In this document: in pieces, positions 2,935 to 59,451 of the stretch | Position numbering within the stretch: position 1 is the stretch's first letter | Layout: the number at the start of each line of letters is the position of its first letter | Assembly (NCBI RefSeq): GCF_001895925.1 | Contig: NZ_MPPI01000015.1 | Span: 1-64,000, forward strand | Direction of reading: 5' to 3' | DNA from: Phormidesmis priestleyi ULC007 | Lineage (GTDB): Bacteria; Cyanobacteriota; Cyanobacteriia; Leptolyngbyales; Leptolyngbyaceae | DNA: 64,000 bases | Position numbers and translations under genes: made by a program | The notes under the pieces: generated by a model | What the model saw: the letters and a program-made list of their open reading frames with translations, nothing else | The model's database searches: none | What the model was told of the DNA's origin: nothing

Positions 2935-2973
2935 CCCATTTCCCCTCTTACCCGACTAAAATATGAGATAAAA

Positions 2974-19132: not shown

Positions 19133-19136
19133 CTCA

Positions 19137-27120: not shown

Positions 27121-30100
27121 TTAATTGAATAGAGAGGATATTTTTTTTAACTTTTCCTCATCCAATTTTGCAAGCGGGAAGTCTGAAGGCTTATAATCCC
27201 CAGCATCGGCAGACTCAAAGCGATCAATAAGTGGCACTGGATCAGTGACGATCGCCTGTTGAGATGGAGCAGAAATAGTTGTATCTAGCACAGAGGCTAA
27301 CTCAGCGATGGTCTGATGCTGAAATAGCTGCTTGAGCGTCAGTTGTAGCCCTGCTTGGTGAGCTTGGGCAATGACTTGAATGCTGACAATGGAATCTCCA
27401 CCGAGTTCAAAGAAGTTGTTATAGATACTGACCTGCGCCAATCTCAGGACTTTTGCCCAGATGTCAGCCAGAATCTTTTCTGTAGGAGTCCTAGGTGCAA
27501 CAAAGCGAGTTGCTAAATTTACCGATGCATCGGGTGCTGGCAAAGCGTGGCGATCGCATTTTCCATTGGGGGTTAGGGGCAAGGCTTCCATCTGCACAAA
27601 GGCACTAGGCAGCATATAACCGGGCAGTTTCTCACTTAAGAAGCGGCGAATTTCGCTGGTGTCAATTGATTCTGAGTCTGTAACAATATAGGCTAGCAGT
27701 CGCTTGTCACCGGGTTGGTCTTCCCGGAGAATCACTACAGTTTCTCGCACCTGGGGATGCTGTCTCAGCACCGCCTCAATTTCTCCCAGTTCAACGCGAA
27801 ACCCCTTCAACTTCACCTGATGATCAATTCGACCGAGAAATTCAATCGTGCTGTCACTCAGATAGCGGGCTAAATCTCCAGTTTTATAGAGACGACTTCC
27901 CGGTTCTGGGCTAAAAGGGTTGGGAATAAATTTTTCAGCCGTCAAATCTGGGCGGTTGAGGTAACCTCTTGCCAAGCCAGCCCCACCAATGTATAGTTCA
28001 CCTCTAACTCCAACTGGAACTGGTTGGAGATTACGGTCAAGAATGTAAATCTGTGTGTTCGCAATAGGACGACCAATAGGCTCTAGGTTCACTCTGCTGG
28101 GCTTAACCGGACGGCTGACGCTGTGGATAGTTGACCAGATAGTGGCTTCAGTGGGGCCATATAAGTTCCAAACAGAGGCTGCTTTTTCTAGCAACTGATC
28201 AGCAAGTGCTTGAGGTAAAGCTTCACCCCCACAAAGAATTTTCAATTGAGGGGAAACTTCCCACCCAGCCGCTTCAAGCATTCGCCATGTAGCTGGAGTG
28301 GCTTGCATAACAGTAGGCTGAGATTTAACTAACTTCTCTAACAATCTTGCTCCATCAACAGCCTCTTCATCGCTGGTCAAGGCTAATTTCGCTCCTACAA
28401 TTAGGGGTAAGAAAAGTTCCAGCCCTGCAATATCAAAAGTTACGGTAGTAACTGCCAGCAAAATATCTTGGTCTGTCAAACCTGGCTGCTGTTTTATCGA
28501 ATTCAAGAAGTTGGTGACAGATTCATGGGTGACTGCAACACCCTTGGGCTTTCCTGTAGATCCGGAGGTGTAAATCGCGTAAGCCAAATTTGCGGCTGTT
28601 ACACCACTAACCGGATTTTCCTGACTCTCCTGGTTAATTGTCTGCCAAACTGTATCCAAACAGACCAGATGTTTGCCATAGTTGGGTAACCCAGCTTGTA
28701 ACCTTTCCTGAGTCAACAATACGGATACCTGGGCATCTTTCAAAATGAAAGCTAAACGTTCTTGGGGCATCTGTGGACCTAAAGGTACATAAGCCCCGCC
28801 AGTTTTGAGAATACCAAGTAGCGTCACTACCATCTCTAGTGAACGCTCCATGTATACACCGACTAGTACTTCTGGTCTCACTCCCAATTTTTTCAGATAG
28901 TGTGCTAGCTGGTTGGCGCGGGCGTTCAATTCCCAGTAAGTTAGCTGTTGGGCATTCTGAACATCTGCAAATGCTAATGCGATCGCATTTGGCGTTTTCC
29001 TAGTCTGCACTTCAAACATCTGATGTATGCGTTGGCCAGGGGAATACTCAGTCTGGGTATGATTCCAGTCCACCAGTAATTGATGCCGCTCTACCTCTTC
29101 TAAAAAACAAAATTCTGAAATTCTTTGCTCTGGATTGGCAACAATTCCCTGAATCAAATTTTGGAAATGTCTCGCCATCCGGGCAATTGTGGCAGCATCA
29201 AATAAGTCGGTGTTGTATTCCCATTCTCCACTCAGCCCCTCTTCTGTTTCTTCCATCACCAGTGTCAAGTCAAACTTCGCTGTTGCGCTCTCATTTTTCA
29301 AGGCAGTTAGAGTCAGACCTGGAAGTTCCAATTTTCCCATTGGTGTATTATGCAAAACAAACATCACCTGGAACAGGGGACTATAGCTGAGGGAACGCTC
29401 TGGTTGTAAAACTTCCACCAACTGCTCAAATGGCAAATCTTGGTGTGCATAGGCATCCATTGCAACCTGCCGCACCCGACTCAGTAAATGTTGGAACGTT
29501 GGGTTTCCCTGCAAATCGGCACGCAATACTAGGCTGTTGACAAAGAAACCGATTAGCGACTCTACTTCCCGACGGTTGCGGTTGGCGATCGGCGAACCAA
29601 CCAATATATCTTCTTGATTGCTGTAGCGCCCTAGTAGGACGGCGAATGCCGCCAGTAAGGTCATAAATAAGGTTGCCCCTGATTTCTGGCTGAGACTTTG
29701 TAACTTCTGTGTCAGGGCACGGTCAATCTGAAAATACTGGATATCTCCTTGGAAGGTTTGTACTAGTGGGCGGGTTCTGTCGATGGGCAACTCTAGCAAC
29801 GGCGGTGCCCCTGCTAATTGCTGTCGCCAGTAGTTCATTTGCACTTCTAGCACTTCCCGGCTCAACCACTGCCGTTGCCAGTGGGCAAAGTCTGCATACT
29901 GGATGGTTAACTCCGGCAGTGGTGAAGGTTTTCCTTGACTGAAGGCTTCATACAGTGCCGCCATTTCTCGGATAAATATCCCGATTGACCAGCCATCAGA
30001 GACAATATGGTGCAGGGTCACCAGGAGCACATGGGACTTTTCCGCCAGCCGCAGTAAATTGACGCGCAGTAAGGGGTCTGATGCCAAGTCAAAGGGCCGC

Positions 30101-33003
30101 TGCTCTTCAATGCTTGCTAACCGTTGCACCTCATGGGACTGCTCTTCTGGTAACCTCTGCAAATCCACTATCGGGACAGTCACACTGAAGGTCGGTGCGA
30201 TCACACTGACTACAGTCTCATTTATTAAGACAAAGCTAGTTCGCAGGATTTCATGCCGTCGAACAATTTCTTGCACAGCCATTTCTAAGGCCGTAACATT
30301 AAGCGATCCCTGAAGGTGCAAGTCCGCTGGGATGTTGTAAGTGGCGCTACTGCCCTCAAGTTGGTCGAGGAACCAGATCCGTTGCTGGGCGAAGGATAGC
30401 GGCAGGGTTCCGGTTTTGTTAATTGGCACGATCGCCAGGGTGGGCACCTCCGATCCTGTTTGGCGCAACGATTCAACTACGGCACTGAGTCCCGCGATCG
30501 TGGGGGTTTCAAATAAGTGGCGCTGGGGGATTTCCACCGCTAACACATCCCTGATCCGTGAAACCAGTTGGGTAGCTAATAGGGAATGCCCCCCAAGCTC
30601 AAAAAAATTGTCGTGGATACCGACTTTTTCCAGACCCAACACTTCTGCCCAAAGCGCCGCTAAACTGGCTTGTATCGGGGTGGTAGGTGGATCATAGCTG
30701 GCTTCTGAACTGCCAAAAGCGATCTCAGGAGTGGGGAGGGCGCGGTAATCGATTTTGCCATTGGGGGTCAGCGGGAATTCCTCCAGCAACAAAAAAGCGA
30801 CTGGCAGCATATAGTCCGGTAGGATCTGACTCAACTCGAACCGCAACTGGGAACTTTCCAACTCTGGTGCGACGACATAAGCCAGGATTTCCTGGTTGTT
30901 GTCATGGGCGGTTCTGGTCACGGCTACGGACTGGGTGACTCCAGGGATGCGGTATAGCGCGGCTTCAATTTCCCCTAATTCAATCCGATAACCCCGGATT
31001 TTAACTTGTCGATCGCGCCGTCCCCCAAAGAGCAATTCGCCGTTAGCCAGCCTCCTGGCCAGATCCCCGGTTCTGTAGAGCTTTTCCCCAGGTACGAACG
31101 GATTTTCGACAAATTTGCTGGCGGTCAACTCCGGGTTGTGTAAATAGCCTCTGGCCAGTCCTTGACCCGCGACACAAATCTCACCTACGACTCCCGTGGG
31201 TACAGGTCTCAACAAGGGGTCAAGCAAGTAAACGGCGGTGTTGGGAATTGGGTTACCGAGGGGGATATCCCCTCGCTCAGGCTGCCCCGCCTCCAATTTG
31301 TAAATTGTTGTGCAGACCGAGGTTTCCGTTGGGCCGTAGGCGTTGAAATAGTCCAACTGCTGGGCGTAATGATCAGCGTCCTGTGCATAGGCAGTTTCAC
31401 CCGCTGTAATCATCACCCGCAGATGCTGAAACTTCGGTTGCTCCAGGGCACGCAGATAAGCCGGGGGAAACGTCGCAACTGTGACTTTTTGGGCATCCAG
31501 GTAAGCGAGGAACTGCTGGCGATCGACAAGCGTGGCCTTGTCTACGAGAACCACCGTCGCCCCAGAGAACAGGGCCATAAATATCTCTGACAGCGACGCA
31601 TCAAAAGAGGAATTGGCAAACTGCAAGATCCGATCGCTGGGCTGAATATCAAAGGCATCGATTTGGGCGATCGCCATGTTGACAAAGCTGTGATGTTCTA
31701 CTGTCACCCCTTTGGGTATGCCTGTAGAGCCGGAGGTATAGATGATATACGCCAGGTCAGAGGGCTGACTGAGGGATGCAGGAGGGTGGGTGATCTGCTT
31801 CAGTTGGGACAACTGGATATCCATCGCAAACATGGGAATATCCAACAGATTTTGCAGTTGGGGCAGGCTGTCTAGCTCCATCAGCAAAACCTTCGGAGCC
31901 GCATCTCGGATGAGAAATTCCAAGCGATCGCTGAACGTGTCCGGGTCAATGGGCACATACGTCCCACCTGCTTTGAGAATGGACAGCAAGCCAATGATTA
32001 AGGATTCGCTACGCCCCAGCATTACTCCAATCGGCTCATCCGGTTGGATGTCGTACTGAGTGCGGAGATGATCAGCGAGTTGATTGGCTTGAACGTCGAG
32101 TTCCTGGTAAGTGAGGCTACGGCTGGGGGTTTGAATGGCAATATTGTCTGGCGTTTTTAATACCTGAGCGGCAAACCGTTCATGGATCGTTTGTGGTTGC
32201 CGCTCCATACGATCGCCGACAGCCCAATCCTGCACAAGCTTGGTTTGTTCTGCGGGCGACAAAATTTCCAGATGAGCCAGAGGGGTATCAAGTTGCGTAT
32301 ACGCTGAAAATAAATGTTGTAACTGTTGAGCAAAGCCCTGCACAAACGCGCGATCGCAGTGTCTGGGGTTGTAGCGCCAGGTCAAGTGCAGAGCTGAGTC
32401 TTTGTGAATCTCGATTACCCAGTCATAGGGACTTAGATCAGGACATGACCCATGAATCTCCGGCAGCCACACGACGACATTGGTCGCCAGATTCTCTTTG
32501 GTTTGATCGGTGGCAATCATTTCCCGATACGGGAAACCTTGATAGCTGTAACTTTGAGAAACGATTTGGGAAACGGTGGAAATAAAGGTCTTTAAAGATG
32601 TTGTTTCATTCACTTGAAACAGCAAACTCACTGACTCTCCCATCGCTTCACCGAACTCTTGAACGGCCAGCACAGGGGAATCAATCAAAATAGTGGGCTG
32701 TCCAGTATAGCGACTGAATAAATAGGTCAGCGCTGAAACAATGACAATATAGGTCGCCAGGAGATCTTGTTTGGCGATTGTGTCAAGGGTCTGTGTCGCA
32801 CTGGCATCCAATTCAAAGGGATAGGTTTCTTTCACATTCCAGCAAGAGCCATCCGGTTCAACAGGGCTTTCTAGCAGAAAAGTGCCTTCTAGGCGGAAAG
32901 GGGCTTCCAGTTGGGCGAGTTGTGCCCTCCAAAAATCGGCATGGGGCTGATAGTTTTTTCCTGTGTAATGCCACAGGTTTTGTTGCAATCGGGTCTGGCT
33001 CAT
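27121..33003 (-). CDS. NRPS3: half-C-A(aromatic?)-PCP-C-A(Gly?)-PCP
   Basis: This is a 1960-residue bimodular NRPS. About 250 N-terminal residues match only the C-terminal lobe of a C domain (no HHxxxDG). Then come A1 (YTSGSTGIPKG near 421), PCP1 (GGHSL near 806), a full C domain (HHIVSDG near 1001), A2 (YTSGSTGKPKG near 1480), PCP2 (GGDSI near 1871) and a short tail ending DFPLAKLDEEKLKK that looks like a docking helix for NRPS4. Pocket residues read D-A-S-T-I-A-A-V-C-K for A1 (Phe/Tyr-like) and D-I-L-Q-L-G-L-I-W-K for A2 (the known Gly pattern). Its ATG overlaps the stop of the CmlA-like gene (ATGA), so the two are translationally coupled. This suggests that the hydroxylase acts on the aromatic residue held on PCP1. 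Substrates and the hydroxylase partnership are inference. Confidence 0.92.
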   Translation of the reverse strand: MSQTRLQQNLWHYTGKNYQPHADFWRAQLAQLEAPFRLEGTFLLESPVEPDGSCWNVKETYPFELDASATQTLDTIAKQDLLATYIVIVSALTYLFSRYTGQPTILIDSPVLAVQEFGEAMGESVSLLFQVNETTSLKTFISTVSQIVSQSYSYQGFPYREMIATDQTKENLATNVVVWLPEIHGSCPDLSPYDWVIEIHKDSALHLTWRYNPRHCDRAFVQGFAQQLQHLFSAYTQLDTPLAHLEILSPAEQTKLVQDWAVGDRMERQPQTIHERFAAQVLKTPDNIAIQTPSRSLTYQELDVQANQLADHLRTQYDIQPDEPIGVMLGRSESLIIGLLSILKAGGTYVPIDPDTFSDRLEFLIRDAAPKVLLMELDSLPQLQNLLDIPMFAMDIQLSQLKQITHPPASLSQPSDLAYIIYTSGSTGIPKGVTVEHHSFVNMAIAQIDAFDIQPSDRILQFANSSFDASLSEIFMALFSGATVVLVDKATLVDRQQFLAYLDAQKVTVATFPPAYLRALEQPKFQHLRVMITAGETAYAQDADHYAQQLDYFNAYGPTETSVCTTIYKLEAGQPERGDIPLGNPIPNTAVYLLDPLLRPVPTGVVGEICVAGQGLARGYLHNPELTASKFVENPFVPGEKLYRTGDLARRLANGELLFGGRRDRQVKIRGYRIELGEIEAALYRIPGVTQSVAVTRTAHDNNQEILAYVVAPELESSQLRFELSQILPDYMLPVAFLLLEEFPLTPNGKIDYRALPTPEIAFGSSEASYDPPTTPIQASLAALWAEVLGLEKVGIHDNFFELGGHSLLATQLVSRIRDVLAVEIPQRHLFETPTIAGLSAVVESLRQTGSEVPTLAIVPINKTGTLPLSFAQQRIWFLDQLEGSSATYNIPADLHLQGSLNVTALEMAVQEIVRRHEILRTSFVLINETVVSVIAPTFSVTVPIVDLQRLPEEQSHEVQRLASIEEQRPFDLASDPLLRVNLLRLAEKSHVLLVTLHHIVSDGWSIGIFIREMAALYEAFSQGKPSPLPELTIQYADFAHWQRQWLSREVLEVQMNYWRQQLAGAPPLLELPIDRTRPLVQTFQGDIQYFQIDRALTQKLQSLSQKSGATLFMTLLAAFAVLLGRYSNQEDILVGSPIANRNRREVESLIGFFVNSLVLRADLQGNPTFQHLLSRVRQVAMDAYAHQDLPFEQLVEVLQPERSLSYSPLFQVMFVLHNTPMGKLELPGLTLTALKNESATAKFDLTLVMEETEEGLSGEWEYNTDLFDAATIARMARHFQNLIQGIVANPEQRISEFCFLEEVERHQLLVDWNHTQTEYSPGQRIHQMFEVQTRKTPNAIALAFADVQNAQQLTYWELNARANQLAHYLKKLGVRPEVLVGVYMERSLEMVVTLLGILKTGGAYVPLGPQMPQERLAFILKDAQVSVLLTQERLQAGLPNYGKHLVCLDTVWQTINQESQENPVSGVTAANLAYAIYTSGSTGKPKGVAVTHESVTNFLNSIKQQPGLTDQDILLAVTTVTFDIAGLELFLPLIVGAKLALTSDEEAVDGARLLEKLVKSQPTVMQATPATWRMLEAAGWEVSPQLKILCGGEALPQALADQLLEKAASVWNLYGPTEATIWSTIHSVSRPVKPSRVNLEPIGRPIANTQIYILDRNLQPVPVGVRGELYIGGAGLARGYLNRPDLTAEKFIPNPFSPEPGSRLYKTGDLARYLSDSTIEFLGRIDHQVKLKGFRVELGEIEAVLRQHPQVRETVVILREDQPGDKRLLAYIVTDSESIDTSEIRRFLSEKLPGYMLPSAFVQMEALPLTPNGKCDRHALPAPDASVNLATRFVAPRTPTEKILADIWAKVLRLAQVSIYNNFFELGGDSIVSIQVIAQAHQAGLQLTLKQLFQHQTIAELASVLDTTISAPSQQAIVTDPVPLIDRFESADAGDYKPSDFPLAKLDEEKLKKISSLFN

Positions 33004-34592
33004 AGCACAACCTCTTTTTTCCCAAACAGGAATTCAGCAGATATCCCTCTGGATTTACACTCACTGATTAAGCGCTGCAATTGAACCATGGGATTAGCAT
33101 CCTCTTGTAGCTCCAGCCCTAAAATGTATTGCAGCCAAGGCTCCTGTCCCATGGCGTAAACATACATCTGCTGAGGATGGAAGCGATCGACCAACTGCAT
33201 CCCCTCCCTATAGTTACAACCCCGACCCAGGCGGCTTTGATCCATCGGTCTCGGTAAAGGTGATTTAAACAACGGGCCATAAACCCAGGAAGGCGGTGAG
33301 CCGTCGCATTCCATCCCCAGAAAAATGAGATCGACATCTCCGGTGTAATTGTGAATGCGGTCATACAAGACTGGATCGATACTGCAAGAATCTGCCTGTA
33401 CCAATATGGAATGATCCAACAAGCGCACTAAATAAGTCAGTTTGCTGCGGACTAACAGGTCATGATGCTCTCCCAGAAACGGCAGTCCAACAATCACCCC
33501 TCCGGGAATTTCAATCTCGTCCAGTTCTCTGAGTTCAATCACATTCTTGAAGCCGAGATATTTCAGCATCAGCCCCAGAGATGGATCTTGCAGCGCACCT
33601 TCACAGTTGCGACCCACGACAATATGACCGACTTTATGCCGCAACTGCATCAATGTTTCCGGCAAACAGTGATCTTGATGGCTATGAGTGATCAGTACAT
33701 AATCAATCCAGTCGGGTAAATCTTGATAGGTGTACCGGGGAATATCTGAATCATAAGTATAGCTAATGACCGGATCGAACAGAATACTGACCTCCCGCGT
33801 CTCAATGAGCAAACAGGCATGACCGAAATACCGAATGCGGACACGATCGCCCGTATACTTTTCCTGACTTGGTGGAGGTGCTTCAGTAAAAAATGATCTG
33901 AATAGTTCTGGGTTCGTAATCTCAACGTCTAGCTGACTGCAAATATAGTCATAATCTTGCGGGGTTGACCTCATCTTAAACAGTTCATCCAATCCCGGAT
34001 GAGCAAACGGAATCGGTAAATGAGCGTAGTTCTCCTGCTTTAGCCTGGGTGTACTGAAAATGAATGGGCGACTGCGATCGTGCTTCACCTGAGACAGTCC
34101 CATACTTTGACACGTCACATCGTAAAAGGGGCTGCGGTAGAGCAACTGTTCAAAAAATCTGAATGTAGGATTGTTGTTGAGGTCGTAGCTGAGTTCCACA
34201 TATCCTTGCAGGATCTCTGGGACTTTGGCGTAAAGCGATTCCAAGCTATACCCCTTGGCATCGCGACTCAAGAGATTTTCCAATTCTTTAACGGCATGGA
34301 CAAACTCGATTAAGTGTCCGTGGCGTTCCTGCGTGTGTTGCAACAGATCCTTCACTTCATCGACTCTGGAACTATCTAGGGCAATGAAAGGGCCGCTCTG
34401 CATGGCTAGGTTTTTCAAAGCCAGGATATGAAGTTGGGGCGAATTGATGTATGAGGTCATGATAGCCAGATGGCGATCGACCAGATTCATCGCCGCTGTA
34501 GCCGGGGGGATCAGTAATACCCAAGCCACCCACAAATTGAATAGGGGTTCAACCTGAACATCCTGCCTGAAATACAATTTTGGGTTCGGCAT
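33000..34592 (-). CDS. CmlA-like diiron beta-hydroxylase
   Basis: The 530-residue protein has an N-terminal domain (RQDVQVEPLFNLW opening) followed by a metallo-beta-lactamase fold with the metal motif THSHQDHC (HxHxDH, near 302). Length and layout match CmlA of chloramphenicol biosynthesis (about 530 residues), a dinuclear-iron oxygenase that hydroxylates the beta-carbon of an aromatic amino acid while it is bound to an NRPS carrier protein. The stop overlaps the NRPS3 start by ATGA, and the first NRPS3 adenylation domain has an aromatic-type pocket, so beta-hydroxy-Tyr or beta-hydroxy-Phe is the likely product. It is the first gene of the late NRPS operon. A simple hydrolase is the alternative, but the N-terminal domain and length argue against it. 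Confidence 0.8.
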   Translation of the reverse strand: MPNPKLYFRQDVQVEPLFNLWVAWVLLIPPATAAMNLVDRHLAIMTSYINSPQLHILALKNLAMQSGPFIALDSSRVDEVKDLLQHTQERHGHLIEFVHAVKELENLLSRDAKGYSLESLYAKVPEILQGYVELSYDLNNNPTFRFFEQLLYRSPFYDVTCQSMGLSQVKHDRSRPFIFSTPRLKQENYAHLPIPFAHPGLDELFKMRSTPQDYDYICSQLDVEITNPELFRSFFTEAPPPSQEKYTGDRVRIRYFGHACLLIETREVSILFDPVISYTYDSDIPRYTYQDLPDWIDYVLITHSHQDHCLPETLMQLRHKVGHIVVGRNCEGALQDPSLGLMLKYLGFKNVIELRELDEIEIPGGVIVGLPFLGEHHDLLVRSKLTYLVRLLDHSILVQADSCSIDPVLYDRIHNYTGDVDLIFLGMECDGSPPSWVYGPLFKSPLPRPMDQSRLGRGCNYREGMQLVDRFHPQQMYVYAMGQEPWLQYILGLELQEDANPMVQLQRLISECKSRGISAEFLFGKKEVVL

Positions 34593-35618: not shown

Positions 35619-36389
35619 ATGGCACCGACCTTTGACTCCTGGGTAAAATATCTCAAACCCAATCCCCAAGCCAGCCTGCGCCTGTTCTGCTTTACCTTTG
35701 CAGGGGGTTGGTCTGCTACATTTCGCACCTGGCCAGATGGCTTACCAGAATATGTCGAGACGTGTGCTATTGAACTGCCTGGACGCGGAACTCGATTAAA
35801 GGAGATCCCATTAACCAGTTTTCCACTGCTCGTTGAGGCGATTGCGCTAGTTCTTCCGCCTCATCTAGACAAACCGTTCGCCTTCTTCGGTCACAGTATG
35901 GGTGGGCTAATCTGTTTCGAGGTGGCCCGTTTCCTCAACAAACATTACGATCGGGAACCCGTTCACCTGTTCGCTTCCGGTTGTCGATCGCCGCAACTGC
36001 CCGCCCTTAAACCGCCTATCCATACGTTGCCAGAAGCCGCATTTTTGGAGGAACTACGTAACCTCAATGGGACTCCCCAGGTGGTTTTGGAGAACGCCGA
36101 ATTGAGGCAACTATTGTTGCCTGTCTTGCGTGCTGATTTTGCTGTCTTTGAAACCTATACTTACACTACCGATTCACCCCTTAACTGTTCCATTACGGCT
36201 CTGGGTGGTTTACACGATCCGGAAGTCAGCGCCGAACAGATGACAGGCTGGCGAGAACAAACTACCGCGTCCTTCTCCCTGCATCTGCTTCCCGGTGATC
36301 ACTTTTTCCTGCAATCAGCCCAGCCCCTCCTGCTCCAAATCATCTCTCAAAAGCTGCACCAGTTAACGTCGGTACAGAGTTTCAGGTAA
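35619..36389 (+). CDS. Type II thioesterase
   Basis: The 256-residue alpha/beta hydrolase opens with LRLFCFTFAGG, has ELPGRGTRL, the nucleophile motif GHSMGG and the catalytic-His motif GDHFF. This is the pattern of the stand-alone thioesterases (GrsT/RifR type) that clear mis-loaded or stalled acyl groups from carrier proteins. It follows mbtH by 9 bp. Its 3' end overlaps the converging PKS-aminotransferase gene by 27 bp, so the two operons run into each other without room for a terminator. Given the degenerate A domain of NRPS1 and the damaged AT of PKS1, an editing enzyme could matter in this pathway; that is inference. Confidence 0.93.
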   Translation: MAPTFDSWVKYLKPNPQASLRLFCFTFAGGWSATFRTWPDGLPEYVETCAIELPGRGTRLKEIPLTSFPLLVEAIALVLPPHLDKPFAFFGHSMGGLICFEVARFLNKHYDREPVHLFASGCRSPQLPALKPPIHTLPEAAFLEELRNLNGTPQVVLENAELRQLLLPVLRADFAVFETYTYTTDSPLNCSITALGGLHDPEVSAEQMTGWREQTTASFSLHLLPGDHFFLQSAQPLLLQIISQKLHQLTSVQSFR

Positions 36390-39300
36390 AAATCCTCCTT
36401 TTTGCAGTTCCTCTACGCTATTCTTGACAGCCTGAATCAAATACTCAATATCTGCATCGGTATGTGCAGTTGACAGAAAACAGTTACGCCCTTCCCAGAT
36501 GTAAACCCCGTTGAACAGCAGGTGATAAAACAGCAAATCCAGATTACCTGAAAATGAAAAGCGAAACAGGGAGCCAAAATGGATGATACGGATGGGGACA
36601 TTTTCAGTTTTAAAGTAAGTATTCAACGTTTCCGCGAACTGTGACGTGCGCTGATTTAACTGCTGCGTCAGGCGATCGCCTTGTTGTTTAAGCTGCTGCA
36701 GCACCGCCCTGGCAGCGTTCATTGTGATATGGTTTTTGTTGAAGGTTCCGGCGAAAAATGTCTTCTCTGCCTGGGGGTAGGAAGCGTCTCCATACTGCCA
36801 CACCCCCCCGTCGATCGCATTCATGTAGAGAGCCTTGCCTGCAACAACCCCGATCGGCATTCCACCTCCGACAATTTTGCCGTAAATGGTAATGTCTGCT
36901 GCAACCCCAAACCAGGCTTGTGCCCCGCCCGGATGGATGCGGAAGCCTGTAAGAACTTCATCAAAGATCAGCGCTATTCCTGTGCTCTGTGTTAATTGCC
37001 TTAATTGCTGTAGAAAGGCTTTGGGTTGTAAATCGGGGCGGCGACTTTGCACGGGTTCAACCAGCACTGCGGCTAGTTCGTGTGCGTGGGCCTGCAAAAT
37101 ATCCAGGGATCTGGGATTGTCGTAATCCAGGACTAGAACGTCTTTAACGGCTTGCGGCGATACTCCTGGCACCATTGGTACAGTATTGATCCCGGCAGTA
37201 TTGATCCCAGCATTCGATGCTGTCGCCAAAACGCCGTCAAAATGCCCGTGATAAGAATTCGCGAATAGAGCAATCTTGTTGCGACCCGTCACGGTGCGTG
37301 CCAGACGGAGGGCTAACATTACGGCTTCTGTTCCGGTGTTGCAGAATGCCGCCCGTTCCATACCCGTCAATTCGCAAATTAGCTGGGCTACTTCTCCGGC
37401 CAGATTTGACTGTGGCCCAATTTGTATCCCGTGTTTGATTTGCTGTTCTATAGATGCAGTAATAAAGGGTGGGTTGTGACCAAACAGCAGCACACCAAAT
37501 CCCATTGTGATGTCAACATACTCGTTGCCATCCACATCCCAAAATTTGCAGCCCTGCGCTCGCTCCCCAATGATCGGATAAAGCATTTCTTTGATCGAAG
37601 GCCGAAAACCTGCTACCGATCGACTGTCCGCTAAAACCTGACGATAGGCTTGCGATCGCTGTTTTGATGTTTGAGTACGATGAGTATATTTAACGATGAG
37701 TGAATCTAAGTGCTGCTGTTGTTGTGGATTGAGACTTTTAGGTTGCGTTTCTGGCTTGAAATGAGGGGTCGATAAATGAGCGGTGGAGTCTGAGGGGCGA
37801 TCGCTGAATGGCAAAAATCCATTCTTGGATACTGGCTCCTTCTCGGTTATGAAACTGTTTCCAGAGAGAAGCTGTAACTGTTGAGACATCAATTCAATCT
37901 GCTGCTGAATCACCAGTCTTATGTCATCAGGAGTGACTTCTAATTCTCCAGAAACCTGGACATCAAGCATTCCTGGCTTTGTCGGTATAGTCGTTGCGTT
38001 CCGTGCGACTGGCTGGGCAGACTGGAATTGAGATTGGTGGAGTTGAGGTTGAAGTGAATTTGTCGCCGCCCAAGTTGGAGGTAAATGTTGGTCAATGTGG
38101 GTTGCCAAAGCATCAATGGTTGTCAACTGTTCAAATAGTTGGCGAATCGCAATTTTAATGCCAAATATCTGTTCGATCGTTTGTACAGCATCCATGAGAA
38201 CAATCGAATCTGCACCCATTTCCAGAAACGCCGCATGAGGTTCTACTTCCGATGGCTGAGATCGCAGTAGTTCTGCAATCGTGGACTGTAAGATCGCCAG
38301 AATTCGGTCTTTTTGAGTCATGCTGGGATGTTCAGTGATCTGAGGCTCTGGTCTATTTTCGCCTGATGGTTGTTCATTGAGTTCATTGCTCTGCTTCATA
38401 GCTGCATTTGTGTTTTCAAACCAATAACGTTGGCGCTGAAAGGGATAGGTGGGAAGTGACAGCCAATGTCTGGAGTAGCCGCGATCGAATTCAGGCCAGT
38501 TAACACCGATCCCCCGGACATATAAAGCAGATAAGCTCTCTAATAAGACTCGCCAATCCTCTTGTCCCGGCGCTAAAGAGGGCAACCAGATTGCTGGAAC
38601 ATCTTGTTGGCAACCTTTGCCTAAACTTGACAGGATCGGTTTCGGGCCAATTTCTACAAATAGTTCACAGCCTTGCTGAAACATTGTGTGGATTCCTGCC
38701 GTAAATCTCACGGCAGATCGCGAGTGATGTCGCCAATATTGGCTACCTGGTGGTTGTTCAGGCGACATCATCTGACCCGTTAAGTTGGAAATCAGCGGGA
38801 TGGCTGGAGCATGAAACGTGATTTGACTCGCAGCTTGTTCAAGGTCGTCCAAAATGGGTTGCATGGCGGGGGAATGGAACGCATGAGAGACATTTAAGGC
38901 TCGCGTTGCCACTCCCCTGGACTGCAAGCTCGCCTGCACCCTCTCCAGCGCGGGTCGCGCTCCCGAAATCACCACATGAGCGGGCCCGTTAATTGCGGCG
39001 ATCCCTAATCCAGACTGGTCGGGCATCAGCTCCTCGACCACGGCAAGCGGCGCAAACACCGCCATCATTCCCCCCGTCTGCGGCAGCGATTGCATTAACC
39101 GCGCCCGCGTCGCCACCAACTTCAGGGACTCTGCCAGCGTGAACACCCCCGCCACCGTGGCTGCCACATACTCCCCTAAACTGTGCCCCATCACCACATC
39201 CGGTACAATGCCCCAAGAGCGCCACAATTGGCAGAGGGCATACTCTAAAGCAAACAAGGCGGGTTGCGTATAAGCCGTTTGGTCAATCGGCGAGGACGCT

Positions 39301-41162
39301 CCCGGTCGGGGATAAAGCACCTGTAGCAGGGGCGGGTCGAGGTAAGGTCGGAGCAGGGTGTCGCAGTCCTCCAGCGTTTGCCGAAAAATCGGTTGAGTTT
39401 CGTAAAGTTGTCGTCCCATGTGGACATATTGACTGCCCTGCCCTGTAAACAGAAAGGCAATTTTAGGGGGGGAGTTGCCCGGAGACTGAGCGGCTGGGAG
39501 GGGTGCCGCTGCAACTGGATAGACCATCAGTTTGTCCACGGCTTCCGCGATCGTTGCTGCGACGATGCTGAGGCGGTAGGGAAAGTGGGAACGACCGCCA
39601 GCGGCGGTAAAGCAAACATCACTCAAGGGGAGGTCGGGATGGGATTGCAGATGGTGAGCGTAGCGGTGGGCGAGTTGGAGTAGGGCGTTGGGAGTTTTGG
39701 CCGAGAGGGCGAGCAGATGCAGGGGACGCTCCCGCTCCCTTTCCCCCGGTTCTGGAGCGGTGGGCGAGTCGGGAGGGGCGGCTTCCAGGATGAGATGGGC
39801 GTTGGTGCCACTAAACCCAAAGGAACTGACTCCTGCCAAGCGTTTCTGACCACCCGGCCAGGGCCTGGCGGCGGTGGGGACAAGCATCGGGAGTTGCTCC
39901 CAATTAACGTGCGGGTTGGGCTGAGAGAAGTGGAGGTGAGGGGGAATTTCTTGATGTTGCAGCGAGAGCACGACTTTGATTAATCCGGCAATCCCGGCTG
40001 CGGCTTCCAAGTGCCCAATGTTCGTTTTGACTGAGCCAATCACCAAGGGTTGCTCTGGGGAACAGTGTTTGCCAAACACCTCAGCCAATGCCTCTATCTC
40101 AATGGGATCGCCCAAGGAGGTTCCAGTTCCATGAGCCTCAATGTAGCCGATTTGCGCTGGCTCAACTCCCCCATTGGCGAGAGCCTGACGAATTACCGCG
40201 ACCTGAGATGGTCCATTGGGAACAGTTAAGCCACCACTTGGCCCATCCTGGTTCACCGCCGATCCGCGAATTAAGGCCAGAATTTTGTCGCCGTCCGCGA
40301 TCGCATCTGAGAGGCGCTTCAGGACAACTACACCACACCCTTCGCCTCGGACGTAGCCGTCTGCTTGAGCGTCAAACGTTTTACAGCGACCATCCGCCGC
40401 CATCATTCTAGCTTTGGAAAAATTGATGCTCGGTTCTGGCGAGAGGATCAGGTTTACGCCAGCAGCTAGGGCCAAACTGCACTCTCGCAGGCGCAAACTC
40501 TGACAGGCTAGATGGACGGATACCAGGGAAGCCGAACAAGCCGTATCTACACACAGGCATGGGCCCGTTAACCCCAAGCTATAGGACAAACGTCCAGCCG
40601 CCACGCTAAGAGAGTTACCCGTACCAAAGTAGGCATCGATATGCGTGGCATCACCCGCTTGCCAGAGGACTTTCGTGTAGTCACTGGTGCTCATGCCCAC
40701 AAATACGCCCGTGGAACTGTTGAATAACTTGTCAGGAACCTGATTGGCGTGTTCCAGGGCTTCCCAACTGACTTCCAGAAGCAGGCGTTGCTGCGGGTCT
40801 AGACTGATCGCTTCTCGTGGGGAGATATGGAAAAATTTGGCATCAAAGGCATCTACCTGAGGCAAAAAACCCCCGTAGCGAGTAGACATCTTGCCGGGAG
40901 CCTCTGGATTGGGGTCATAGTAGGCGTTGATGTCCCAACGGTCTGGAGGAACTTCGCGAATCGCATCTACCCCATTTCGCAGCAGTTGCCAGAAAGCATT
41001 TGGGGTATCAGCCCCCGGAAACCTGCTGCCTAAACCCACGATCGCGATCGCTTCAGTCTTGGCCTGTTCTAAAGCCTGGAGCTTGGATTGCAGTTTTTCC
41101 AGTTTCAGCAGGGCATTTTCCATTAACGCCCGATAGTCTATGCCTGTTGAGCTTTGGCTCAT
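36363..41162 (-). CDS. PKS3: KS-AT-ACP-aminotransferase
   Basis: This is a hybrid of about 1599 residues from ATG 41162, which has GAGGT just upstream (a GTG 6 bp earlier is possible). Order: a ketosynthase (DTACSAS near 205, [22 protein letters not shown]), a malonyl-type AT (GHSLGEY near 662, HAFHS), an ACP (GADSI near 986), a helical linker (about 1070-1090) and a class III PLP aminotransferase (GTEAVMLALRLAR, IFDEVLTGFR, lysine in YGKIVGGGMPIG near 1426). There is no reductive domain, so the beta-keto group made here should pass to the aminotransferase and become a beta-amine. The same arrangement makes the beta-amino fatty acids of iturin/mycosubtilin and puwainaphycin-type lipopeptides. 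The KS-AT region shares a nearly perfect 1.2-kb stretch with PKS2. Confidence 0.93.
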   Translation of the reverse strand: MSQSSTGIDYRALMENALLKLEKLQSKLQALEQAKTEAIAIVGLGSRFPGADTPNAFWQLLRNGVDAIREVPPDRWDINAYYDPNPEAPGKMSTRYGGFLPQVDAFDAKFFHISPREAISLDPQQRLLLEVSWEALEHANQVPDKLFNSSTGVFVGMSTSDYTKVLWQAGDATHIDAYFGTGNSLSVAAGRLSYSLGLTGPCLCVDTACSASLVSVHLACQSLRLRECSLALAAGVNLILSPEPSINFSKARMMAADGRCKTFDAQADGYVRGEGCGVVVLKRLSDAIADGDKILALIRGSAVNQDGPSGGLTVPNGPSQVAVIRQALANGGVEPAQIGYIEAHGTGTSLGDPIEIEALAEVFGKHCSPEQPLVIGSVKTNIGHLEAAAGIAGLIKVVLSLQHQEIPPHLHFSQPNPHVNWEQLPMLVPTAARPWPGGQKRLAGVSSFGFSGTNAHLILEAAPPDSPTAPEPGERERERPLHLLALSAKTPNALLQLAHRYAHHLQSHPDLPLSDVCFTAAGGRSHFPYRLSIVAATIAEAVDKLMVYPVAAAPLPAAQSPGNSPPKIAFLFTGQGSQYVHMGRQLYETQPIFRQTLEDCDTLLRPYLDPPLLQVLYPRPGASSPIDQTAYTQPALFALEYALCQLWRSWGIVPDVVMGHSLGEYVAATVAGVFTLAESLKLVATRARLMQSLPQTGGMMAVFAPLAVVEELMPDQSGLGIAAINGPAHVVISGARPALERVQASLQSRGVATRALNVSHAFHSPAMQPILDDLEQAASQITFHAPAIPLISNLTGQMMSPEQPPGSQYWRHHSRSAVRFTAGIHTMFQQGCELFVEIGPKPILSSLGKGCQQDVPAIWLPSLAPGQEDWRVLLESLSALYVRGIGVNWPEFDRGYSRHWLSLPTYPFQRQRYWFENTNAAMKQSNELNEQPSGENRPEPQITEHPSMTQKDRILAILQSTIAELLRSQPSEVEPHAAFLEMGADSIVLMDAVQTIEQIFGIKIAIRQLFEQLTTIDALATHIDQHLPPTWAATNSLQPQLHQSQFQSAQPVARNATTIPTKPGMLDVQVSGELEVTPDDIRLVIQQQIELMSQQLQLLSGNSFITEKEPVSKNGFLPFSDRPSDSTAHLSTPHFKPETQPKSLNPQQQQHLDSLIVKYTHRTQTSKQRSQAYRQVLADSRSVAGFRPSIKEMLYPIIGERAQGCKFWDVDGNEYVDITMGFGVLLFGHNPPFITASIEQQIKHGIQIGPQSNLAGEVAQLICELTGMERAAFCNTGTEAVMLALRLARTVTGRNKIALFANSYHGHFDGVLATASNAGINTAGINTVPMVPGVSPQAVKDVLVLDYDNPRSLDILQAHAHELAAVLVEPVQSRRPDLQPKAFLQQLRQLTQSTGIALIFDEVLTGFRIHPGGAQAWFGVAADITIYGKIVGGGMPIGVVAGKALYMNAIDGGVWQYGDASYPQAEKTFFAGTFNKNHITMNAARAVLQQLKQQGDRLTQQLNQRTSQFAETLNTYFKTENVPIRIIHFGSLFRFSFSGNLDLLFYHLLFNGVYIWEGRNCFLSTAHTDADIEYLIQAVKNSVEELQKGGFLPETLYRR
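38830..40046. repeat. 1.2-kb near-identical direct repeat, copy in PKS3
   Basis: This segment covers the end of the KS, the KS-AT linker and most of the AT. It matches 45486-46702 in PKS2 with one mismatch that I noticed (AAG against AGG near the KS end). The encoded protein is the same over about 400 residues. Sequences diverge abruptly at both edges. Confidence 0.9.
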
Positions 41163-41173
41163 GTTCACCTCGT

Positions 41174-44100
41174 TTAATCCAAACTTGCCAATTTTTTAGC
41201 CAATAAGTCTGCGAGTTCTTCTTGAGACAGTTCTTTCAAAGTTGCTGATAACTCCGTGTCCTCTGCAAGGGGGGGTGATTCCGGGCTGAGTGGCGGGGAA
41301 AGCTCCAGGGACAGGACATCCTCCAAATACTCGACTAGCGCTTCCACGGTGGGGTAATCAAAGATCAACGTTGAGCGCAAAGATTTGCCCAGATCGCGTT
41401 CAAAGCAATTTTTTAATTCAACCGCGACGAGCGAGTCCAGACCCAGATCAAATAATCGTTGGCGCGGCTCTATTTGCTCCCATGACTTTAACCCAACAAC
41501 CCTGGCAATTTGAGAACGAATATACGTCATCAATAGAATTTTGCGTTCTTTGAAGGGAGCGTCCTTTAACTGCTGGAGGAATTCGGGTTGCTGCGCCTGG
41601 GATTGGTCAGAAGCAGCAGTGCAATGCTCCAGAAGCGGTAAATCCAGCCCTTGAGGAAGTTGCTTGAGAAACTTCGCCCAATTCACAGATAAGACCCCTA
41701 CCTGAGTTGCAGGGTGTTCCAGCAACTGGGCAAGCACTTGCAATCCTTGCTCAGGCTTGATGGCACTGATCCCCAAAGCTGCCCAGCGATCGCGATCGCG
41801 AGGCGTCATTTCCTCTGCCATCCCAGCCGTTGCCCAAGGGCCCCAATTGATGCTCAAGCCTGGTAGTCCTAATGCTCGACGGTAATGCATTAAGGCATCC
41901 ATAAAGGCGTTGGCTGCGGCATAGTTGCCCTGTCCCGGTGAGCCAAGCAGGGCAGCGCTGGACGAAAAACAGATAAAACAGTCTAAGGGCAGTTCCTGGG
42001 TCAATACATGCAGATTCCAGGCTCCTGTGATCTTGGGTGCCATCACCGAGCTAAAGCGTTCCCAGGTTTGACTGAGCAATACTCCATCTGCCAAAACTCC
42101 CGCCGCATGGATGATTCCTCGCAGGGGTGGCATGGATGCCTGCACCTCCGTCAAAACGCGGGACACCTCGTCCCGGATAGCCACATCCGCCTTGCAGATT
42201 TTGACATTGGCTCCAGCCTGCTGTAATTCAGCGATCGTAGCCTGGGCTGCCTGAGATGCCGCCTGCCGCCCCATTAAGACCAGATGGCGGACTCGTCGCT
42301 CTACTACTAACCAGCGAGCTACCTGCAAACCCAGAGCACCTAACCCACCTGTAATTAAATAGCTGCCCTCCCCCTGCCTTGCTTGCGGCATGGAAATCAC
42401 GACTTTGCCCACGTGCTTGGCCGTTTGCATATAACGAAAGGCATCGACCACCTGATGAATCGGAAATGCTTTGTAATTTAACGGCTTGAGAGTACCGTGC
42501 TTGAACTCCTCCATCAATTCCTCAAGCATCGAGGCAATTAAACCAGGATTCTGTAGAGAGAGTTCTAATAAGTCGAAGGCAAAATAGGACGCATCAGGTC
42601 TTTGGGACTGCACCTGGGTTTGATCCCAAATGCCGATTTTGCCAATTTCGACAAATCGCCCTCCTTGCCCTAAAACCTCAAGGCTCTTGGGAATGAACTC
42701 CCCATTCAGGCTATTAAGAACAATGTCCAACCCTTGTCCGTCAGTGGCTGTCATGACTGCTTCAGCAAAGTCCAGGGTGCGGGAGTTCATTACCTGGGTT
42801 ACCCCAGTTGATTTGAGAAATTCCCACTTGCTGGGGCTGGCTGTAGCAAAAATTTCTGCCCCCACCCGTTGAGCTAACTGGACTGCGGCCTGTCCAACCC
42901 CGCCAGCCGCCGCGTGAATCAAGATTCTGTCTCCGGGTTGCATTTTAGCTTGGTAATGCAAGCCATAGTAAGCCGTTAAGAAGGGGGTCAAAATCGTAGC
43001 TGCGGCTGCAAAACTCAGGTCTGGGGGTTTGGGAACAACAAAATCTGCTTTGACGGTGACAAAACTACTCAGACTGCCCAGGGCCATGACAGCCATCACT
43101 TCATCACCCACTTGAAACCTGGAAACCTGTTTGCCCACGGCCACAACCCTGCCCGCACACTCCCCGCCAAAGGGAATGTCGATCGCCGCATCAATCCCTT
43201 GCTGCTGCGTATAGGCTTGGAGCAGTCCGAGGGCATTGAGGACATCTCTAAAGTTCAGTCCACAGGCGCAAACTTCAATTTCCACCTCCTCTGGTTCCGG
43301 GGCGCGGCGGGTCATCGGTGCCAAGGTGAGATTTTCCAGAAGTCCGTAACTGGTTATTTTGACCTGGAAGGGTTCAGTCGGAAACTCCAGCATTTTTGCT
43401 TGACGTTCACCCGCGCCCGATCGAGACCTAACCAGTCTAGGAACATAGCGAACTCCCTGTCTGTAGGCAATCTGGTCTTCTCGATCGGGCGATCGTAATT
43501 CTTCCAACAGGGTCAGAACTTCAGTTTGATCTACCGCTGGGTCTAAATCGAGTCGCACACACCGCAGATCAGAATGTTCCAGGGCAATGACGCGCCCCAG
43601 CCCCCAGAGAGGCGCTTGCTGAATGTGCGGGAGCTGGCTTTCCCCGATCGGTTGAGTTCCCCTGGTCACTAACCATAAGCGGGGGATCACGGCGGGGTTC
43701 GTTTGGACAAGACTTTGCAATAAATGCAAAACACTGCCACAGCTTTGTGCTTGCGCGTCCTCTAAGCTTGCCAGGGTGATGTCTGGTAACGAGTCCTCTA
43801 GGCTCCACAGAAAAATCACGCCGCTATAGAACTGTGAGTGATCGTCCTGGCTATCCAGCAGCAATTGCTGAAAATCTGCCGGGTTGGTCGGATTAATTTG
43901 ATACTCGTCTGCGGCTAATCTGGCATACCCTAGACCAGGGGACACTAAGACACAGCGATCGCCCTTATCCCTGAGGTAGGTAGCCAGCGTCCTGCCGATT
44001 TCTCCTGGGTCAACAAACAGCAGCCAATGACTCAATTGTCCGGATGGTAAGGGCGGGTGTTTGGCACTGCGCTCCTGAACCTGCCAAGTGGTTTCATACA

Positions 44101-47100
44101 ACCAGTGGCTCAGGTCTTCTTGCTGAAGAACTTGTTGCAAGGCTTGACGAGTGATACTTCGGAGGGTTAAGCCCTCTAACTGGGCCACCATATTGCCGCT
44201 CTCATCCAACAGTTGGACTGTAGCCGTTACGGTCTTTTGCTGCCAGCCCTCAACCTGGCAGATCTTCAGTTGAGTCCACAAATGGGTGCTGGGACGACGA
44301 TACAACTGTAAGCGCTCTACCCCCACTGGAATATAGACGGCTTGTTGGTCAGCCTCAGCCAGAGCTGTGCCTACGACCTGGAAACAGGCATCCAACAATA
44401 TTGGGTGCAGTTTGTAGGCTTCTGCCTCTAAAATCAAGGGTTCTGGTAAGCGAATTTGCGCCAATGCTTGTCCTGGATGCCGCCAGAGCTTATCAATGGC
44501 CTGGAAACTGGTACCATAATCGACTCCCTGCTGGCGTAACTGCTGGTAATACTGGTTTGTAGATACGGCTTCCGTATATTGGGCCTGTAAGGCCGCTAAA
44601 TTCACTTGAGGGGGTGAGTTTTTGGGGTCTTCAACCAGGTTGCCAAAAGCATGGAGTGCCCAGTAGGACTCAGAATTGTTTTCGTCAACATTGAGGCTAT
44701 AAACCTGCCAGGAAAATGTCTTTGAGTTTTCTGTCTTTGAGTCTTCGGGTTTCAGAACTACGTGGAGGGTTTTGTCGGCATCGCCTAGCATCAGAGCCTG
44801 CTGAATGACGGTTTCCTGTAGCCTCAAGTTGTTCGAGTTGCAAACCACAGCCCCAGCCGCTAGTGCCATTTCTAGATAAGCCGTGGCTGGCAAAATTACT
44901 TGCTGGTAAAGGCGATGATGTGCAAGATAGGCAGGAGAATCTTGACTAAGGGTAGACTCAAAACGAATCTCTTCAGTGCCGGGTAAATGCAACCGTTGCC
45001 CCAACAGAGGATGCAGGCGGGGAGCAGTACTGCTTGCCCGGAATGAAGATGGATTGGCTCCGGGTGTAGCTGTCTTCACCCAATAGCGCTCTCGCTGAAA
45101 CGGATAGGTGGGCAAGGCAACTCGACGACGGGGACAGTCTTGATCAAAACCAGACCAGTCTACCTTGGCTCCACACCGATACAACTCTCCCAAACTTTGT
45201 AGCAACGGTTGCCAGTCTGCTTGACCGAAATGCAGGCTGGGCAACCAAACTCCAACTGCTGCTGGCAAGCAATGCCGAGCCATTTCTAAGAGGATAGGCT
45301 TGGGGCCGATCTCGACAAAGATTTCAATTCCTTGCTGATACAGCGTGTCTATACTGCGAGCAAATTGGACAGATTGCCGCAAATGAGCAACCCAATATTC
45401 AGGAGTGGCGATCGCTGACGTTGCCACTTCTCCCGTCACATTAGAGATTAAGCGGATTTGTGGCTGGGCATAGGTTACTGCTTTGGCAGCTTGTTCAAGG
45501 TCGTCCAAAATGGGTTGCATGGCGGGGGAATGGAACGCATGAGAGACATTTAAGGCTCGCGTTGCCACTCCCCTGGACTGCAAGCTCGCCTGCACCCTCT
45601 CCAGCGCGGGTCGCGCTCCCGAAATCACCACATGAGCGGGCCCGTTAATTGCGGCGATCCCTAATCCAGACTGGTCGGGCATCAGCTCCTCGACCACGGC
45701 AAGCGGCGCAAACACCGCCATCATTCCCCCCGTCTGCGGCAGCGATTGCATTAACCGCGCCCGCGTCGCCACCAACTTCAGGGACTCTGCCAGCGTGAAC
45801 ACCCCCGCCACCGTGGCTGCCACATACTCCCCTAAACTGTGCCCCATCACCACATCCGGTACAATGCCCCAAGAGCGCCACAATTGGCAGAGGGCATACT
45901 CTAAAGCAAACAAGGCGGGTTGCGTATAAGCCGTTTGGTCAATCGGCGAGGACGCTCCCGGTCGGGGATAAAGCACCTGTAGCAGGGGCGGGTCGAGGTA
46001 AGGTCGGAGCAGGGTGTCGCAGTCCTCCAGCGTTTGCCGAAAAATCGGTTGAGTTTCGTAAAGTTGTCGTCCCATGTGGACATATTGACTGCCCTGCCCT
46101 GTAAACAGAAAGGCAATTTTAGGGGGGGAGTTGCCCGGAGACTGAGCGGCTGGGAGGGGTGCCGCTGCAACTGGATAGACCATCAGTTTGTCCACGGCTT
46201 CCGCGATCGTTGCTGCGACGATGCTGAGGCGGTAGGGAAAGTGGGAACGACCGCCAGCGGCGGTAAAGCAAACATCACTCAAGGGGAGGTCGGGATGGGA
46301 TTGCAGATGGTGAGCGTAGCGGTGGGCGAGTTGGAGTAGGGCGTTGGGAGTTTTGGCCGAGAGGGCGAGCAGATGCAGGGGACGCTCCCGCTCCCTTTCC
46401 CCCGGTTCTGGAGCGGTGGGCGAGTCGGGAGGGGCGGCTTCCAGGATGAGATGGGCGTTGGTGCCACTAAACCCAAAGGAACTGACTCCTGCCAAGCGTT
46501 TCTGACCACCCGGCCAGGGCCTGGCGGCGGTGGGGACAAGCATCGGGAGTTGCTCCCAATTAACGTGCGGGTTGGGCTGAGAGAAGTGGAGGTGAGGGGG
46601 AATTTCTTGATGTTGCAGCGAGAGCACGACTTTGATTAATCCGGCAATCCCGGCTGCGGCTTCCAGGTGCCCAATGTTCGTTTTGACTGAGCCAATCACC
46701 AACGGGTTTGCTTGAGAACGCCCTTTCCCCAAAACAGTGTCTAAAGCCCTGATTTCGATCGGATCGCCTAAAGCGGTTCCAGTGCCGTGAACCTCTACGT
46801 AGCTTATTTGTAATGGGTCTACCTTGGCTTTCGCTAGAGCCTGGGAAATCAGTGCTTGCTGCGCCTGTTTATTCGGAACGGTGAGACCGCTACTGTGACC
46901 ATCATGGTTAACGGCTGACCCACGGATCACCGCCAAAATGCGATCGCTATTGGCCACCGCATCGGACAACCGTTTGAGTACTAGCATCCCACATCCTTCG
47001 CCCCGACCATACCCATCGGCGGAGGCATCGAAGGTCTTGCAGCGCCCATCCGGAGAGAGTACCCGCGCTCTGGACAGAAAAATAGTAACCTCCGGTGACA

Positions 47101-47821
47101 GGATTAAGTGAACCCCACCCGCCAGAGCTAAGTCGCACTCTCCAGCCCGCAAACTTTGACACGCTAAATGGACACTTACGAGCGAAGCGGAACAAGCGGT
47201 ATCGATGGCTAAGTTAGGGCCTTGCAAACCCAGAATATACGACAGCCGACCTGCTGCAAATGCAAACCCATTGCCCGTCCCAGCGTATGGATCAATGTTT
47301 TCATAATGACCGGAAAACATCTGTAACTGGGCGTAATCATTCTGTCCGATCCCCACAAAAACACCCGTTTTGCTGCCAGTCAATTGGTTCGGGGCTTGTC
47401 CGGCATCTTCTAGGGCTTCCCAACTCACTTCTAATAGCAGGCGCTGCTGGGGATCTAGGCTGGCCGCTTCGCGAGGAGAAATCCCAAAAAACTGGGCATC
47501 AAATTGGTCTACCTGGGGAAGAAATCCACCATAACGAGTGTAAATTTTTCCTGGCGCGTCGGGATTTGGATCATAATAGGCATCGGTATGCCAGCGGGTC
47601 TTTGGGATCAGATCGATCGCATCCACGCCATCCCGCAATTGCTGCCAGAACGCCTCTGGATGATCGGCAGAACCAGGGAACCGACAGCCCATTCCAATAA
47701 TCGCGATCGGCTCGTGTTGAGCATATTCAACAGCTTCCAGTTTGGCGGCGGCTTCATCGAGGGCAAGCAGGAGCCGTTGCTTGATAGAAACTTGATTCAT
47801 GGGTTCAGAAAAATCGCTCAT
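41174..47821 (-). CDS. PKS2: KS-AT-DH-ER-KR-ACP (fully reducing)
   Basis: This 2215-residue type I PKS module has a complete reductive set. Its domains are KS (DTACSAS near 207), AT (GHSLGEY near 662, HAFHS, malonyl type), DH ([16 protein letters not shown] near 965), ER ([11 protein letters not shown] near 1642), KR (ITGGLGALG near 1827, with [17 protein letters not shown]) and ACP ([10 protein letters not shown] near 2129). One round of extension here should give a saturated two-carbon addition to the fatty acyl chain. It starts 1 bp after the PKS1 stop, behind AGGGGAA, and ends 11 bp before PKS3, so the three PKS genes form one transcription unit. Its AT-encoding DNA is almost identical to that of PKS3. 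Confidence 0.95.
45486..46702. repeat. 1.2-kb near-identical direct repeat, copy in PKS2
   Basis: This is the partner of 38830-40046, offset 6656 bp, in the same orientation. Recombination between the two copies would remove most of PKS2 downstream of its AT and fuse its 5' part to the 3' part of PKS3. Confidence 0.9.
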
Positions 47822-47822
47822 G

Positions 47823-52430: not shown

Positions 52431-52481
52431 TTTTTCCTTCTTAATATATTTATTTCCAAGGCTGTTGATGGGGTGGTGTCC

Positions 52482-52536
52482 GGGCGGGTTTAGTCAGAGT
52501 CTCCAATACTCAACTACTGATAGACAAAACCCGCCC
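52482..52536. repeat. Inverted repeat in the PKS1-P450 gap
   Basis: Perfect 10-bp arms (GGGCGGGTTT at 52482-52491 and its complement at 52527-52536) enclose 35 bp. There is no T-run. It may be a structured leader or weak attenuator upstream of PKS1, or a short interspersed repeat. Confidence 0.4.
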
Positions 52537-52627
52537 CTTGTATTGAGGGGAAGATAAGACAAAGACTTGACCACCGGGATGTAAAACAGTATCTACGATT
52601 TACGGTATAAGCTTGTCTGGAAATTGC

Positions 52628-53911: not shown

Positions 53912-53926
53912 GTTCAACTCTCTCTT

Positions 53927-56893: not shown

Positions 56894-57014
56894 GCAGTAC
56901 GAGAAAAGGTCAAGACATCAATCTCCGCTGTTCCTTTACCTCTCAAGGGGCTTTGTGTCCTCGCCTATTCATCCGTTGCCATATTTGCAAAGCTACTCAG
57001 CAAGAGGAACAGTC

Positions 57015-58305: not shown

Positions 58306-59451
<1,146 letters not shown>

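Follow-up and report, generated by a model that had tools for sequence, protein, structure and literature searches.

Among the diiron beta-hydroxylases associated with nonribosomal peptide synthetases (NRPSs), the closest described systems are FrsH, from the biosynthesis of FR900359, and CmlA, from that of chloramphenicol. FrsH hydroxylates leucine on its peptidyl carrier protein (PCP) domain, before acylation, and is involved in two leucine positions of FR900359 (PMC7794379). Beta-hydroxylated Asp, Phe and Ile occur in the products of chitinopeptin clusters that carry a CmlA-like gene (PMC9248904), and a CmlA homologue, KasD, has been proposed for Phe in kasumigamide, an assignment made by homology only (PMC5061366). 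Beta-hydroxytyrosine is itself found in a cyanobacterial lipopeptide, balticidin (PMC5706043). Here we describe a 64,000-nt stretch of the Phormidesmis priestleyi ULC007 genome, called the window throughout, which contains a polyketide synthase (PKS)-NRPS lipopeptide gene cluster and, within it, a gene for a CmlA/FrsH-type enzyme (33000..34592, minus strand) that overlaps the start of an NRPS gene, NRPS3. The explanation that best accounts for the observations, and which we hold to be probable, is that tyrosine on the first carrier domain of NRPS3 (PCP1) would be beta-hydroxylated by this enzyme, with the condensation (C) domain of another protein, NRPS2, acting in trans.

The product of the gene, 530 residues long, had been described as CmlA-type from its layout, and both sequence and fold confirm this. 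It matches the entire Pfam CmlA_N model (1.8e-84; residues 7-239, 33876..34574, minus strand), followed by metallo-beta-lactamase domains, and it aligns from end to end with FrsH (PDB 8a90; 5e-130, 438 bits) and with CmlA (PDB 4jo0; 7e-107, 362 bits). Its AlphaFold2 model (pLDDT 89.7, pTM 0.91) superposes on FrsH with a TM score of 0.96 (Z 50.3) and on CmlA with a TM score of 0.90 (Z 46.7), every other structure scoring below Z 20. The diiron ligands of CmlA, which we take to be H305, H307, D309, H310, E377, D403 and E430, a list that agrees with the E377D entry 5kil and with the numbering of 4jo0, were located by counting from the 4jo0 chain and allowing for its two extra N-terminal residues. 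Their counterparts, all on the minus strand, are H303, H305, D307 and H308 in the HxHxDH motif (HSHQDH, residues 303-308, 33669..33686), E375 (33468..33470), D401 (33390..33392) and E428 (33309..33311). The motif is invariant across 80 homologues; six of the seven ligand positions show no variation among the 80, the seventh differs in one of them, and no ligand is missing from the window protein, either within the motif or outside it. Sequence and structural model together make a strong case that this is a complete diiron beta-hydroxylase of the CmlA/FrsH family, and we predict that it binds two iron ions and hydroxylates the beta carbon of a PCP-bound amino acid.

Translational coupling of this gene to NRPS3, also part of the preliminary description, is evident at the junction of the two on the minus strand (GTGCTATGAGCC), where the stop codon of the hydroxylase gene and the start codon of NRPS3 overlap within the four bases ATGA (33000..33003); the orthologues of Nostoc sp. 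WHI and Cyanomargarita calcarea overlap in the same way. NRPS3 (27121..33003, minus strand, 1960 aa) consists of a half-C leader, an adenylation (A) domain of Tyr/Phe type, PCP1, a C domain, a Gly-type A domain and a second PCP. The first A domain, A1 (30754..32175), has the code DASTIAAVC, which differs from that of the Phe-activating GrsA (DAWTIAAIC) at two of nine positions, and its core motifs A3, A5, A7, A8 and A10 are intact. The PDB chains that match it best by a single stretch are TycA (405 bits) and then GrsA (370 bits), both Phe-activating; two-module chains such as LgrA score above TycA by matching twice. The domain is therefore aromatic-type, as first described, and its code suggests Tyr rather than Phe: DASTIAAVC lies, we presume from the code tables, near the Tyr code, and the serine in place of Trp239 would leave room for the hydroxyl. 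Beyond A1 on the same strand are PCP1 (30475..30663), the predicted carrier of the hydroxylated residue, the internal C domain with its motif HHIVSDG (29077..30408), and A2 (27559..29016), whose code DILQLGLIW we likewise take to be Gly-type. A literature search for the code strings found no supporting paper.

The CmlA_N family is present in only 10 of 386 sampled cyanobacterial genomes. A scan of 84,980 species, with one genome for each, gave 68 loci, of which two are orthologues of the window enzyme (85% and 78% identity) and the rest come mainly from Bacteroidota, at about 50%. In a tree of these proteins the window enzyme forms a clade with its two orthologues (100/100), but the sister group is without support, and assignment to a substrate group by tree was consequently abandoned. 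The A-domain codes beside the Bacteroidota enzymes are very varied (Leu, Asn, Ser and others), one clade adjoining Leu-type modules. In Cyanobacteria the neighbouring codes are mostly GrsA-like, being found in the window clade and in two independent clusters, in genomes G030 (DASTIAAVC) and G338 (DAWTIAAVC); a clade whose enzymes are fused to a reductase has DAPTLGAVN beside it instead. By a hand tally, in which the background contains related sequences, a GrsA-like code occurs in three of four neighbours of CmlA-like genes, compared with one among some 54 further A domains of these loci (p = 0.0005). The fused enzymes were seen in five cyanobacterial genomes (L021:12583-15675, plus strand; G042, G125, G284 and G123) as proteins of about 1000-1030 aa, in which the CmlA-like part is joined to a docking domain, TubC_N, and to a thioester-reductase-type NAD_binding_4 domain, adjoining the DAPTLGAVN module.

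It was originally argued that CmlA acts on aromatic residues and that a beta-hydroxy aromatic residue is accordingly predicted in the product. The reasoning falls, because FrsH acts on Leu-PCP, chitinopeptins carry several different hydroxylated residues and the Bacteroidota codes are so varied; the outcome itself still appears the most likely one given the coupled aromatic-type module. Our call of an aromatic substrate is based instead on the adjacency of that module and on the preservation of enzyme and Tyr module as a unit in three related clusters, all of which retain the hydroxylase with half-C/A(DASTIAAVC)/PCP/C. Otherwise, Nostoc sp. WHI keeps NRPS1 to NRPS4 at 68-80% identity, while the Cyanomargarita counterpart of NRPS3 is without the Gly module.

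The same breadth of substrate would allow a genuine hydroxylase to have another target, or several, such as the Asn-type residues of NRPS2, NRPS4 and NRPS6. The two leucine positions of FR900359, the three hydroxylated residues of chitinopeptins and the Leu, Asn, Ser and further codes beside Bacteroidota homologues all speak for this. In three clusters, however, the enzyme gene is joined to the Tyr module by the ATGA overlap, and enzyme and module are retained together, both of which speak against it. A TauD-like dioxygenase gene in the window (56955-58040, plus strand), which is kept beside NRPS1 in both orthologous clusters, encodes a second candidate for hydroxylating a residue, the Asn-type one of NRPS2 being a possible target; a division of labour in which TauD served that residue would leave the CmlA-like enzyme with Tyr. 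On balance we regard a different or additional target as possible but unlikely.

In proposing how the residue is made, we suggest that A1 would activate Tyr (possibly Phe) and load PCP1, after which the hydroxylase would place one oxygen atom from O2 on the beta carbon of the bound residue, before condensation. Within the half-C/A/PCP unit there is no catalytic condensation domain, and the chain from NRPS2 would be joined through the trans action of the full C domain that closes NRPS2. The leader of NRPS3 is an isolated C-lobe, which may be kept either to provide the usual C/A platform or to bring NRPS2 and NRPS3 into contact. The residue in the product is then likely to be beta-hydroxytyrosine. 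Several observations weigh against this scheme: one enzyme may serve several modules; the tree does not put the hydroxylase in any group of known substrate; by sequence and by fold it is nearer to FrsH, a leucine enzyme, than to CmlA, which has an aromatic substrate; the Tyr reading of the A1 code depends on code tables that we have presumed; and NRPS2 and NRPS3 lie in separate operons, their pairing being deduced from matching ends. Some condensation domains dehydrate beta-hydroxy residues, and the hydroxyl might be formed and later lost by dehydration or oxidation, leaving a dehydro- or keto-residue in the product. We found nothing that speaks specifically against such a loss; the motif of the next C domain is ordinary and intact, and we consider this outcome very improbable.

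The half-C leader at the start of NRPS3 (32254..32958, minus strand) is real, as first described. HHxxxDG is not present in the first 280 residues of the protein, and the leader matches only positions 187-446 of the condensation model, its second half, at 31 bits, where full C domains reach about 600. A second leader (65 bits) opens NRPS2 (7692..8402, plus strand), which has no adjacent CmlA gene. The model of the NRPS3 leader (pLDDT 73) matches the C-lobes, and only the C-lobes, of many C domains (Z about 22), and the X-domain entries 4tx2 and 4tx3 are among its structural matches.

The further suggestion that the hydroxylase could dock on this leader, which would make the leader comparable to the X/interface domains that recruit other oxygenases, does not hold up well. 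The domains of that class have two lobes and the NRPS3 leader has one; half-C leaders occur in genomes without CmlA as well as on NRPS2; and FrsA is described as C/A/T, with no such leader (PMC7794379). A scripted count of 119 NRPS starts in 85 sequence families shows no association between half-C starts and CmlA adjacency (4/21 vs 12/59 families; Fisher p = 1.0, odds ratio 0.92), a figure weakened by the fact that the set was partly fetched by leader similarity; it replaces an earlier hand tally of fewer loci (p = 0.21). The families directly downstream of CmlA comprise 14 with full C, three that begin with A and four with half-C, and the leader was rejected as a hallmark of CmlA on these grounds. 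Some features do favour docking. The NRPS3 leader has diverged much further than ordinary C-lobes, and the relative nearest to it outside the orthologues (28%; L049:5313-6092, plus strand, Fulvivirga sp. M361) sits on an NRPS just upstream of a CmlA gene. Half-C starts immediately after CmlA are found in G338 and L068 as well. Taken together, we consider a docking role highly doubtful. The strong divergence and the position of that relative are nevertheless the reason for keeping in view a specialised split-module C-lobe that would bridge the proteins and present Tyr-PCP1, hydroxylation gating the trans condensation by the NRPS2 C domain, although we lend this little credence. When the phylum was searched for more leaders of the NRPS3 type, everything found apart from the orthologues was either an ordinary C-lobe or a half-C leader of another kind.

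What half-C starts do track is the end of the preceding protein. Among scorable families all 12 with a half-C start are preceded by a C-ending protein, compared with 3 of 35 with a full-C start (p = 9e-9), and this figure should be unaffected by how the leaders were fetched. The ends match within the window too, since NRPS1 and NRPS2 end in C while NRPS2 and NRPS3 start with half-C/A. Read most simply, these data make the leader a feature of A-PCP units that lack a C domain in cis; the Tyr module of NRPS3 would therefore be a split module, and its catalytic C domain is most likely the one that ends NRPS2 (7662-11573, plus strand), which is a full domain with the motif HHIIFDG (10206..11540). 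The proteins are then likely to act in the order FAAL, PKS1-3, NRPS1, NRPS2, NRPS3, NRPS4, NRPS5, NRPS6. Alternatively, NRPS3 could begin a separate chain, its half-C/A/PCP being an initiation module that needs no upstream condensation. No catalytic C domain precedes A1 in cis, and G338 supplies an exception to the general pattern, a half-C/A(Phe)/T protein with no upstream C domain to be seen, which may start a chain. Against this, the C domain at the end of NRPS2 is intact and the cluster offers it no other acceptor protein, and half-C starts track with C-ending partners, so that a separate chain seems distinctly unlikely.

The arrangement recurs in Cyanobacteria without CmlA, where a half-C leader precedes an A domain with the code DIWEMxADD, which looks diaminobutyrate-type, and comes after a protein with a full C domain at its end. 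Loci L117-L125 represent a recurrent cassette of this kind, made up of a C-ending (often standalone C) protein, a class III aminotransferase and half-C/A(DIWEMxADD)/PCP, some copies having cupin_8 or TauD genes as well; these are possibly cyanochelin-like siderophore clusters. We considered whether the gene of about 418 aa before half-C/A in such clusters was a carrier-acting enzyme, but it is the class III aminotransferase and probably supplies diaminobutyrate, and its likeness in gene order to the CmlA clusters therefore means little.

The window, from a genome of 5.68 Mb in 118 contigs, has on the minus strand a run of genes (36363..56071) for FAAL-ACP (53927-56071), a P450 (52628-53917), PKS1 (KS-AT-KR-ACP), PKS2 (KS-AT-DH-ER-KR-ACP) and PKS3 (KS-AT-ACP-aminotransferase), beyond which come the CmlA-like gene, NRPS3, NRPS4, NRPS5 and NRPS6 with its thioesterase. 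On the plus strand are NRPS1 (2923-7644), NRPS2, an ABC exporter, a type II thioesterase and the TauD-like dioxygenase. Because an aminotransferase domain follows the last PKS module, a beta-amino acyl starter chain is predicted from family membership, and the product would be a beta-amino-acyl lipopeptide. In NRPS1 a dead A domain lies between a C and a PCP domain that are both intact; it has ATASTEIDR in place of TSGSTGxPKG and lacks both YGPTE and the A10 lysine. The Cyanomargarita NRPS1 (L146:6647-8266, 539 aa), with NRPS2 next to it, consists of a linker and a single C domain only, and since the module lost there is the one with the dead A domain here, the C-A-PCP of NRPS1 looks dispensable. 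At 14339-19162 (minus strand) an FkbM-type methyltransferase domain is placed inside or after the A domain of the last module, ahead of the PCP and thioesterase; it is absent from the Cyanomargarita counterpart, which can be aligned on both sides of it. Transposase genes of IS110 type (58483-59451, plus strand) and IS630 type (973-1934, plus strand) flank the cluster, and the hydroxylase was found neither in a genome of the same genus nor in the genomes of the same family that were searched, all of which is in keeping with horizontal gain.

With beta-hydroxytyrosine already known from balticidin and KasD already proposed for Phe, the hydroxylase adds a member to a known enzyme family. Few members of that family have been characterised (CmlA and FrsH), and beta-hydroxytyrosine is strongly predicted for the cyanobacterial lipopeptide cluster that now joins them. 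The three orthologous clusters are a setting in which to study how enzymes of this type choose their module. If the association of half-C starts with split C domains is more widely true, a half-C/A start would point to a partner ending in full C, and would help to order NRPS proteins.

Of the known systems, FrsH resembles the window enzyme in full length, fold, all ligand positions, a GMECDG motif and an NRPS in the same cluster; the two differ in sequence (about 40% identity) and in setting, FrsH acting on Leu-PCP of C/A/T modules while the coupled module here has the order half-C/A/PCP and a code of aromatic type. CmlA shares full length, fold and all ligand positions, and an aromatic substrate is expected here as well, although identity is about 35% and the substrate of CmlA is L-p-aminophenylalanine; a literature search on the layout of CmlP found none. 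KasD is likewise a CmlA homologue, and kasumigamide is also known from Cyanobacteria, but cluster architecture and product are different. The chitinopeptin proteins come from Bacteroidota, whose homologues in our scan share about 50% identity with the window protein; they too are encoded by a CmlA-like gene in a lipopeptide cluster, and are set apart by their association with a single product that has beta-hydroxylated Asp, Phe and Ile. Finally, X/interface domains and the NRPS3 leader are both catalytically dead relatives of C domains, but the former have the full two lobes, whereas the leader has a single lobe and tracks split modules rather than an oxygenase.

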